Shown here: in pieces, positions 10,246-31,938 of the stretch
How the letters are laid out: the number at the start of each line of letters is the position of its first letter
Numbering within the stretch: position 1 is the stretch's first letter
Source: a virus
Reading direction: 5' to 3' (one strand)
Virus record (IMG/VR): IMGVR_UViG_3300046355_000083
Location: 1-32,748 of that record
DNA: 32,748 bases
Translations under genes and position numbers: made by a program
Notes under the pieces: generated by a model
Told to the model about the DNA's origin: nothing
The model's database searches: none
The model's input: only the letters and a program-made list of their open reading frames with translations

Positions 10246-11544
10246 GTGGCACAATTTAGAACCGATAAAAATATAATCGATTCTGGTCAAGTATTTACCA
10301 GATACGAAATCATGATGTTATCTGATAGGTTAACTCCATCGGGTACAGCTGTTGATGCTTTCGGTAGAATGAGAGTTGCACAACCACATACTCTTTTTGA
10401 TTCTCAACACCAAGATGTTGAAAATGATAAGTGGGACACATTAATCATCGGTTCAGGTACAAAAACACATCTACCTAATGAATCTACAATAAAATTAGAA
10501 ATTGGCACGGCCAACAATGATACTATCATTCGTGAATCGTTACGCACAATACCATATCAGCCAGGTAAATCATTGTTGATTATGAATACATTTGTAATGG
10601 GAGAACCTAAAGCAAATGTGGTACAGAGAATAGGATATTTTAGTGCAAATAATGGAATTTATTTAGAAAATGATTCTGGAAATAATTATATTGTAATGAG
10701 AAGTTCCGTTACTGGAAATGTAGTTGAAACAAGAGTGGCACAATCGGATTGGAATTTTGACAAGTTTGATGGTGAAGGATACACCTCTCAACAAAAAGGA
10801 ACAGGTCATGAGTCCGGATTAGATGTTACTAAATCTAATTTATTTTGGATGGATATTGAATGGCTTGGAGTTGGTGATGTTCGTTGTGGTTTCTTGGTTG
10901 ACGGTTTATTAAAAGTTGCCCATATTTTCCATAATGATAATAGGAATACAACCACATATATGCGTAGTGCAATATTACCACTGCGTTATGAGATATACAA
11001 TACCGGTGCAACATCGTCAAATACAGTTATGCGACAAATTTGTTCTTCCGCTGTTTCAGAGGGAGGCTACACACAGGTCAATCAAAGTCGGTCAGCGTCA
11101 AACCCACTGACTGGTAAAAATTTAACGAACCTTATCAATAATCCAATGGTGAGTGTAAGATTAAAAACAAATAGATTGAATGCTGTAGTTGTTCCTGTTG
11201 CAGTAGACCTGTACGGTTTGCAAGCAACAGCATTTAAATATAGAATATATGAAAATGTTACAAGTTTAACTAATGCTTCTTGGCAAACGACAGATAATGC
11301 AAGTGCGGTTGAGTATGATATATCCGCAACTGCCATGACTGGTGGTACTTTATTAAAAGAAGGTATATTTAAAGGACTAGAAGTTGCAAAAGAGATTGAT
11401 TTGCTTGGACATTTGGATGGATCTATTCAGTTAACAAGAAAAATAAACGCTGCTAATGGTGATATATTTACCATTGCAGTAGAACCAACAACAAATAATG
11501 ATGATGCTATTGTTGCATTATCATGGCAAGAACATATTAATTAA
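10246..11544 (+). CDS. Phage virion structural protein
   Basis: A 432-residue beta-rich protein with GTG as start directly after the previous TAA. Key segments are AVDAFGRMRVAQPHTLFDSQ (residues 36-55), then LPNESTIKLE, YQPGKSLLIMNTFVMGEP, and VQRIGYFSANNGIYLE. The same order occurs in a large family of structural proteins of T4-like and other tailed phages. There is no signal peptide, membrane segment or catalytic motif. It is probably a capsid-, tail- or fibre-associated component; which one cannot be decided here. A weak GAGAAAG precedes the start, so coupling to the upstream gene may help initiation. Confidence 0.72.
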   Translation: MAQFRTDKNIIDSGQVFTRYEIMMLSDRLTPSGTAVDAFGRMRVAQPHTLFDSQHQDVENDKWDTLIIGSGTKTHLPNESTIKLEIGTANNDTIIRESLRTIPYQPGKSLLIMNTFVMGEPKANVVQRIGYFSANNGIYLENDSGNNYIVMRSSVTGNVVETRVAQSDWNFDKFDGEGYTSQQKGTGHESGLDVTKSNLFWMDIEWLGVGDVRCGFLVDGLLKVAHIFHNDNRNTTTYMRSAILPLRYEIYNTGATSSNTVMRQICSSAVSEGGYTQVNQSRSASNPLTGKNLTNLINNPMVSVRLKTNRLNAVVVPVAVDLYGLQATAFKYRIYENVTSLTNASWQTTDNASAVEYDISATAMTGGTLLKEGIFKGLEVAKEIDLLGHLDGSIQLTRKINAANGDIFTIAVEPTTNNDDAIVALSWQEHIN

Positions 11545-25699: not shown

Positions 25700-26017
25700 A
25701 TGGCTGGTGTATATCGTTTAAAGAATTGTCCTAAGTGTGGTGTTGAACACCGTAAGAGGGGTGCATTTTGTTCACAATCATGTGCCAATCAACGGGCAAC
25801 CTCCGAGGAGAAAAAGGAAGTATTAAGAGATAGAACCCTAGAATATGCTAAGACACCAGAAGGACTCGCAACGGCCGCAATGGTTTCCAGATTGAATGAG
25901 AAACGTGCCAGTGATAATGAAAAAAGAAAAAATGGTGAATATGTATTAGAAGAAGATGATTGGTATGTAGAAATACCTGATTTTGATAGTGATGGTACGG
26001 AGAATATAAAATGGTAG
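25700..26017 (+). CDS. Zinc-finger protein
   Basis: A 105-residue protein. CPKCGVEHRKRGAFCSQSC (residues 10-28) gives a four-cysteine zinc knuckle of the kind found at HNH-type and nucleic-acid binding ends. The rest is charged helix and an acidic C-terminus. No nuclease residues are visible. Probably binds nucleic acid or modulates a host factor; this is inference. Confidence 0.58.
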   Translation: MAGVYRLKNCPKCGVEHRKRGAFCSQSCANQRATSEEKKEVLRDRTLEYAKTPEGLATAAMVSRLNEKRASDNEKRKNGEYVLEEDDWYVEIPDFDSDGTENIKW

Positions 26018-30662: not shown

Positions 30663-31023
30663 ACCAGAAGATAAACTAGGAACTTTGGAAGAAGCCCTTG
30701 AGTTTGATAGAAAAAGAAACTATCAATATACCGCAAATAAACTAAAACAATTAAAAGAAGTCCATGCCGTTCAAGGACAACCTGGAACTTGGGACTATGA
30801 CCCTTATATGCAAGGAATGTATAATGGACTTGAATTGGCACTGGCCATCATGGAAGACAGAGAACCACAGTACCGTGATTTACCAGTAGTACCTATCAAC
30901 AATGTAGTCCAAGACTGTATAGAAGCCATACAAATGACCATGTCCAGAGGTATCCGAGATGATTATTATAGAGGACAGTATGATGCCATTACCTCAATAA
31001 AGAAAAGATTTAATATAGAATGA
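30652..31023 (+). CDS. Conserved small phage protein (TTG start)
   Basis: A 123-residue protein with GTWDYDPYMQGMYNGLELALAIMEDREP (about 46-73), a motif (DYDPYMxGMxNGL) recurring in proteobacterial phage hypotheticals. The best start is TTG 30652, preceded by GGAGAGGAAAG. Function unknown. Confidence 0.58.
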   Translation: MPNRPEDKLGTLEEALEFDRKRNYQYTANKLKQLKEVHAVQGQPGTWDYDPYMQGMYNGLELALAIMEDREPQYRDLPVVPINNVVQDCIEAIQMTMSRGIRDDYYRGQYDAITSIKKRFNIE

Positions 31024-31250
31024 GAAACTGGAAAGAAGAAGTCCACGACACCTATTACTATTATAATGCCGATAATGGTAGAATCATAGGACTAATAACA
31101 CCTATTACCCATACCAGAATATGGGTCGCCAAAGTATTAACAGAACAGTATAACAATGATATATTCCTTGGACAGTATATTAGCCTAGAATACGCAAAGA
31201 AAGCATTAGAGTTATATTGGGATATCCAAGATAGAACATTAATAGAATAG
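31020..31250 (+). CDS. Small phage protein, paralogue of the 28623 gene
   Basis: A 76-residue protein coupled by ATGA. It shares the YYYY...GRIIG ... LGQYIS..YAKKALE core with the gene at 28623. It is the last gene before the 273-nt intergenic region. Confidence 0.57.
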   Translation: MRNWKEEVHDTYYYYNADNGRIIGLITPITHTRIWVAKVLTEQYNNDIFLGQYISLEYAKKALELYWDIQDRTLIE

Positions 31251-31263
31251 TTACCCGAAACCC

Positions 31264-31295
31264 TGTGGATAACTCTGTGGATAAGATGTGAATAA
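31264..31295. repeat. Cluster of three DnaA-box-like 9-mers
   Basis: TGTGGATAA at 31264-31272 and 31276-31284 are exact complements of the bacterial DnaA box TTATCCACA. TGTGAATAA at 31287-31295 differs by one base. All three point the same way, with start-to-start spacings of 12 and 11 nt. Confidence 0.7.
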
Positions 31296-31463
31296 CCACA
31301 TATTACTTTTAGTTATTAGTATATAACCAAAGGTAGTAAGCCTGCCAAGATAAAAACTAAGTTAGTGCTCACTCTCGTTTTCTCAGAGTTTTTGCCGAAA
31401 TTCTGATTCTCGACCATTCCGGTCAACCATTAATACCAATAAAATCAATGACTTACAGAGGGC

Positions 31464-31491
31464 TTGACATTTGCCTCAATACCTGTATAAT
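31464..31491 (+). promoter_or_regulatory. Consensus sigma70-like promoter
   Basis: TTGACA (31464-31469), a 16-nt spacer and TATAAT (31486-31491): both hexamers perfect. Transcription would begin near 31498, giving a leader of about 26 nt to the TTG start at 31524. It probably drives the early gene string to the right edge. Confidence 0.82.
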
Positions 31492-31523: not shown

Positions 31524-31733
31524 TTGAAAACATATAGAATTACTAAGATTGAAGCAGACCAGAAAGAAGTCACTGTGGAATTGACTGAAGCTCAGTTCCA
31601 GTTGATGGAATCACTGGTCGCTGAGAATGAAGATTTGTTTTCCGATCCTGTAACAGAAGATAAGTTTTGTTTGGAAGAACCACTCCAAGAGTGTTTTTCT
31701 AATCTATATGCTAAACTATACAAGGTATTATAA
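31524..31733 (+). CDS. Small protein with TTG start
   Basis: A 69-residue acidic protein (KTYRITKIEADQKEVTVELTEAQF...) with TTG as the likely start: AAGAGAG precedes it and the next in-frame ATG is 27 codons downstream, within conserved-looking sequence. First gene behind the consensus promoter. Function unknown. Confidence 0.55.
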   Translation: MKTYRITKIEADQKEVTVELTEAQFQLMESLVAENEDLFSDPVTEDKFCLEEPLQECFSNLYAKLYKVL

Positions 31734-31734
31734 T

Positions 31735-31938
31735 ATGAACAAAGAACAATTGAAGCGCCAGTGTGAATTGCAGATGGAATCTTATATGTTACATGGCGGT
31801 GTAGTAACGGTTTGTAAGGCTAAGGCACCAAGAAAATCTGAGCGTGTTTTGTCTGGTACCACTAAGGGTTCGGTGTATAATACTGGTCGCCTCCGTAGTT
31901 TTATGAGAGGTTCGGCTTCAATTGATAAGAGGGTTTAA
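31735..31938 (+). CDS. Small basic protein
   Basis: A 67-residue protein (MNKEQLKRQCELQMESYMLHGGVVTVCKAK...) with many Arg/Lys near the C-terminus, suggesting nucleic-acid binding. ATG 31735 follows the previous TAA; an upstream in-frame ATG (31708) is inside the previous gene. Confidence 0.52.
   Translation: MNKEQLKRQCELQMESYMLHGGVVTVCKAKAPRKSERVLSGTTKGSVYNTGRLRSFMRGSASIDKRV

Follow-up and report, generated by a model that had tools for sequence, protein, structure and literature searches.

Tandem DnaA boxes ahead of an early promoter in a T4-like phage and parallel arrays in Vibrio phages

The 32.7-kb IMG/VR contig analysed here, taken whole and called the window, contains an array of three same-facing DnaA boxes ahead of an early-type promoter. 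It is a real DnaA-box array and one case of a recurrent arrangement of which no description was found in the open papers searched. Judged from sequence, binding of host DnaA to the array in vivo is very likely, given its bacterial-site geometry, the excess of tandem box pairs in viruses, and the core conservation with degenerate-base variation seen in a group of Vibrio phages. As to function, the preferred reading, with a probability of about 0.4, is a high-affinity host-DnaA array, placed where an early gene block begins, that would act as an auxiliary early replication start.

The box array and its setting

The features of the array region are listed below by their positions in the window.

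31020 to 31250, plus strand: small ORF ending 13 nt before the array, with homologues in other phage contigs (43-51% identical)
31195 to 31254: AT-rich stretch of low duplex stability (2.3rd percentile) on the DnaA-opening side, overlapping the end of ORF 31020-31250
31254 to 31263: GC-rich decamer CCCGAAACCC, next to box 1 on its unwinding side, a candidate spacer of a BUS-type element
31264 to 31272, minus strand: DnaA box 1, TTATCCACA, exact R1-type
31276 to 31284, minus strand: DnaA box 2, TTATCCACA, exact
31287 to 31295, minus strand: DnaA box 3, TTATTCACA, fitting TTWTNCACA
31296 to 31335: AT-rich segment named in the initial annotation, on the side opposite to canonical DnaA unwinding
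31464 to 31491, plus strand: early-type sigma-70 promoter, TTGACA-16-TATAAT, 12/12 matches
31524 to 31733, plus strand: first small ORF after the promoter, without a family match

The box starts lie 12 and 11 nt apart, and the array spans 31264-31295 in a 273-nt intergenic gap with ORFs 31020-31250 and 31524-31733 on either side. TTATTCACA fully matches the degenerate TTWTNCACA, and therefore all three are consensus boxes; their spacing is that of known DnaA sites. The initial annotation had described two exact boxes and one near-exact box in one orientation, 11-12 nt apart. This description is confirmed, with the third box also a full consensus match. The consensus promoter that it placed about 170 nt downstream was likewise recovered, with 12 of 12 matches, starting 169 nt past the array. 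No other plus-strand match in the window reaches 11/12 with a spacer of 16-18 nt. In the relative L066, a matching promoter (ATCAATGACTTACA...CTTGACA) precedes the homologue of ORF 32227. No DNA relatives of the window end were found in the phage collection, and no relatives of ORF 31708-31938 were found. A known RNA element was rejected (no Rfam match; folding z of -1.2).

The phage had also been called T4-like. PHROG matches in the window include primase, thymidylate synthase, NrdA, NrdB, PhoH, and exonuclease; gp61 and a weak DexA match are present in the window itself. The structural protein at 10246 is closest to those of Puniceispirillum phage HMO-2011 and of Synechococcus cyanophages of 168-175 kb. 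A 157-kb relative, G002, is collinear with the window over 50.6-84.5 kb and has homologues of 12 core proteins (gp32, UvsX, gp41, gp43, gp44, gp45, gp46, gp47, gp55, gp59, gp61, and RegA). Since T4 core replication and late-transcription genes are found in this collinear relative, the T4-like assignment holds for the window.

Chance expectation and comparable arrays

Single boxes are not enriched in the window, where 6 were found versus 7.5 expected. As single boxes occur at chance frequency, the clustering is the signal. Under a first-order Markov model, 2e-6 same-strand triples with the four allowed spacings are expected in the window, and 4e-8 arrangements of two exact boxes plus one more; the clustering of the array is thus beyond chance. 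In GTDB genomes, dnaA lies within 1.5 kb in 60 of the 115 loci with the same three-box geometry, among the matches listed.

Exact tandem box pairs are present in at least 120 viral contigs, versus 12 for a reversed control motif, and have gaps of 2-4 nt only. More than half of these pairs (67/120) lie outside predicted genes, while about 89% of this DNA is called coding by crude gene calls. Gene orientation around the viral arrays displays no clear bias, and no T4 core genes were found near the 120 loci in the stretches examined. No viral array locus contains a dnaA homologue, and capture of a whole host oriC was rejected on this ground. Promoters lie within 300 nt of 14% of viral arrays versus 6% in the background, a modest excess that is not side-specific; a general coupling of viral arrays to promoters is therefore weak. 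Several gut or faecal microviruses (small ssDNA phages; H23, H27, H29, and H30) have unannotated stretches that match the DnaA-box array, and the T7-like Shigella phage A7 (L396, 2500-2650) has DnaA-box-like repeats (TGTGGATAAC) densely lined up close to the end of its genome.

Straboviridae of Vibrio were reached by similarity search. In VH7D, ValKK3, ST2, VS1, VS2, QD01, CZ01, and nt-1, 4-7 same-facing boxes precede an early TTGACA promoter, with seven boxes in 109 nt in VH7D and four in nt-1. The distance from array end to TTGACA is 108-118 nt in these two phages, and the slot is common to about 30 Vibrio phage records. Across the eight array-bearing phages, the box core varies at 3/56 positions versus 26/52 in the spacers (P=1.5e-7), and the degenerate base at 3/7 versus 3/56 in the core (P=0.015); these P values are indicative, because picking the boxes from VH7D biases the comparison somewhat towards conservation and the eight phages are related. 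The box core is thus selectively conserved in the Vibrio group, a lineage other than that of the window, and the variation matches DnaA-box degeneracy specifically, as DnaA binding predicts. The flanks and the promoter are kept in KVP40, V09, and VH1, with no boxes in the slot. Between the conserved flanks of KVP40-type phages, unrelated sequence fills the slot (L422, 2001-2393; KVP40, 98757-99149), so that the slot looks exchangeable. The records of R10Z, R11Z, PVA23, PVA8, and PC-Liy1 begin or end inside the array-promoter region (L390, 2850-3240; VH7D, 33314-33704), which may reflect the author's choice of start or an unusual structure.

Closer to the window, the boxes of G002 form an array at 78293-78323. 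Strong early-type promoters cluster beyond it, from 78817 onward, the previous one being at 66454. Both arrays therefore lie at or near the edge of an early region. In G002, L046, L056, L252, L253, and L258, boxes stand in a cassette upstream of a small zinc-finger-type gene, the homologue of window ORF 25700-26017. This cassette includes one TTATCCACA box and a second box, TTATACACA, which in L258 is TTATGCACA, with only the degenerate base changed. A possible alternative reading of the TTATACACA-type box is a late-promoter-like TATAAGTA, because L260 retains this part without the other boxes. Among the near relatives, several have 2-3 boxes, with box 3 varying at N in one, and others have none; no box cluster was found in the long relatives G009, G013, G024, and G028. 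Conservation of the boxes, a check proposed in the initial annotation, is thus real but patchy; in these relatives of the window it is partial and not at one fixed locus. Several further arrangements were observed in these genomes. Beside the tandem boxes, at about 2895-2935 of L253 and at 9440-9480 of L056, two boxes in inverted orientation (TATCCACAGGT...ACCTGTGGATA) enclose an AT-rich loop. At window 25700-26017 and in L249-L262, the zinc-finger-type gene and its box-bearing leader stand between differing upstream neighbours, like a mobile cassette. At some early promoters of G002 (29869, 32253, and 84082), a dyad like CTGTTGT...GCAACAG lies just upstream of the -35 and is possibly an operator or terminator.

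Unwinding side and possible functions

The region had been read initially as boxes followed by an AT-rich unwinding element, and this layout is not borne out. At E. coli R1 and its unwinding element, DnaA opens the DNA 3' of 5'-TTATCCACA-3'. Because the window boxes are on the minus strand, the unwinding side is to the left of the array and not at 31296-31328. The BUS rule also sets DnaA opening on the 3' side of the box (PMC8287927). The 60 nt at 31270-31329 are 73% AT and rank among the least stable 2% of the window as duplex, but the left flank is AT-rich too, with 31195-31254 close behind at the 2.3rd percentile. For a BUS-type origin, DnaA-trios are expected no more than 16 nt from a box, on its 3' side; a run of five trio-like triplets was found in 31195-31254 (P 0.06-0.09), and the opposite flank scores six. 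A DnaA-trio/BUS element was not accepted, since the run is not significant. The GC-skew check for an origin was negative: neither the window nor two long array-bearing genomes switch skew at the array. This is weak evidence, because in T4-like phages the skew tracks the direction of the genes, and a switch is missing from some T4 origins (PMC3016281).

As an auxiliary origin, the array would work as follows. Three same-facing boxes one helical turn apart would seed a short oligomer of DnaA, directed away from the promoter and reaching across the GC-rich decamer into the AT-rich end of the preceding gene. DnaA would loosen or mark this DNA, and the transcript of the strong early promoter would help to prime or open it; the first copying round would start at the array, after which recombination-dependent replication would take over. 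Because T4-like phages have several redundant origins, one of this kind can be acquired, exchanged, or dropped. The patchy occurrence of the boxes is in keeping with a redundant origin or with an accessory regulator, and speaks against an essential role. In T4, oriE requires an early promoter and contains iterons of unknown role (PMC3016281), so that an array beside an early promoter fits an auxiliary origin. The proposal is weakened by the helicase, loader, and primase that T4-like phages bring themselves, and by the lack of a skew switch, the patchy boxes, and the non-significant trio test. Compared with promoter control and titration, the auxiliary DnaA-assisted early origin is slightly favoured. 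It is doubtful that several T4-like lineages independently keep arrays before early promoters and start their first replication round via DnaA.

Control of the promoter fits the evidence almost as well as the auxiliary origin, though taken by itself it is rather unlikely. DnaA, which acts as a transcription factor in bacteria, would raise or lower early transcription from 108-170 nt upstream, tying the onset of infection to the host's replication state. In the window and in Vibrio T4-like phages alike, the array precedes a sigma-70 early promoter of the same orientation. However, a distance of 108-169 nt is long for DnaA to touch RNA polymerase directly, and KVP40-type phages keep the promoter without the boxes. 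In G002, moreover, the next gene begins about 46 nt past the array, leaving no room for such a promoter, and the nearest one downstream is 494 nt away; the small promoter excess near viral arrays at large, without preference for a side, also speaks against it. Titration, in which the multiplying phage genome binds host DnaA and blocks host initiation like E. coli datA, is improbable. High-affinity tandem boxes at 3-7 per genome would provide hundreds of sites per cell late in infection, but three sites are few at its start, and for a sink it would not matter whether the array stands at a set place before an early promoter or always faces the same way. T4-like phages also have other ways to stop host replication.

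That the boxes came in on a segment captured from a bacterium or phage and now serve no purpose in this phage is slightly more improbable still. Their patchy distribution agrees with such a history, as does their travel in relatives with the zinc-finger-type gene cassette between differing upstream neighbours; on the other side, all three boxes fit the consensus, and the Vibrio group, though a different lineage, displays selective conservation. Iterons for a phage-encoded initiator that reads a DnaA-box-like sequence are very improbable. Tandem repeats at 11-12 nt look iteron-like, and T4 oriE also has 12-nt repeats (PMC3016281), but those are unrelated in sequence and lie inside gene 5. The sequence of the window boxes is exactly the bacterial DnaA box, the Vibrio variation follows the DnaA consensus, and the absence of dnaA homologues from the viral array loci argues against such an initiator.

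Relation to known systems and meaning

The bacterial clusters at oriC and dnaA promoters (E. coli R1; B. subtilis BUS) share with the window array the 9-mer, the same-facing tandem boxes 11-12 nt apart, and a GC-rich spacer with AT-rich DNA on the unwinding side. Unlike them, the window array belongs to a lytic-type phage and has three boxes only, no significant DnaA-trio run, and no dnaA or dnaN nearby. T4 initiation is the textbook case of transcript- and recombination-primed origins without DnaA, and no tandem DnaA-box pair was found in T4. T4 oriE resembles the window array in its evenly spaced short repeats near an early promoter on which it depends (PMC3016281), but its 24/12-nt units (GTTGAAGGTAATG) are inside gene 5 and are not DnaA boxes; oriE-type iterons were rejected because their sequence is unrelated to the array. 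The intergenic arrays of VH7D, ValKK3, and nt-1 resemble it in that their DnaA boxes all face one way and a sigma-70 early promoter follows closely; they differ in having 4-7 boxes at 9-23 nt spacing and in genera and flanks.

T5-like records are also among the matches to the DnaA-box array, and DnaA boxes of T5-like phages have been described as part of an injection stop signal (PMC13250531). That region likewise has DnaA boxes in noncoding DNA near the first-expressed genes, but it is linked to DNA entry in two steps and is located within or close to the terminal repeats. Such two-step entry is not known from T4-like phages. For Pseudomonas phage PseuGes_254, DnaA boxes with an AT-rich region were proposed as an origin by Ori-Finder (PMC11512268); unlike the window phage, it encodes DNA polymerase A and not a T4-type replisome, and its origin is a prediction only. 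The open papers searched contained nothing relevant on DnaA boxes in T4-like phages or KVP40, and no description of arrays of the VH7D, ValKK3, and nt-1 type.

Some T4-like phages thus probably recruit host DnaA, which T4 itself is not known to use. A first replication round started by DnaA is, as far as we know, a mode not described for T4-like phages. Cultured Vibrio phages with the array (VH7D, ValKK3) and without it (KVP40) make the DnaA question directly testable. If the boxes are selectively conserved in T4-like phages, part of this group would tie its early programme to the initiator of the host.
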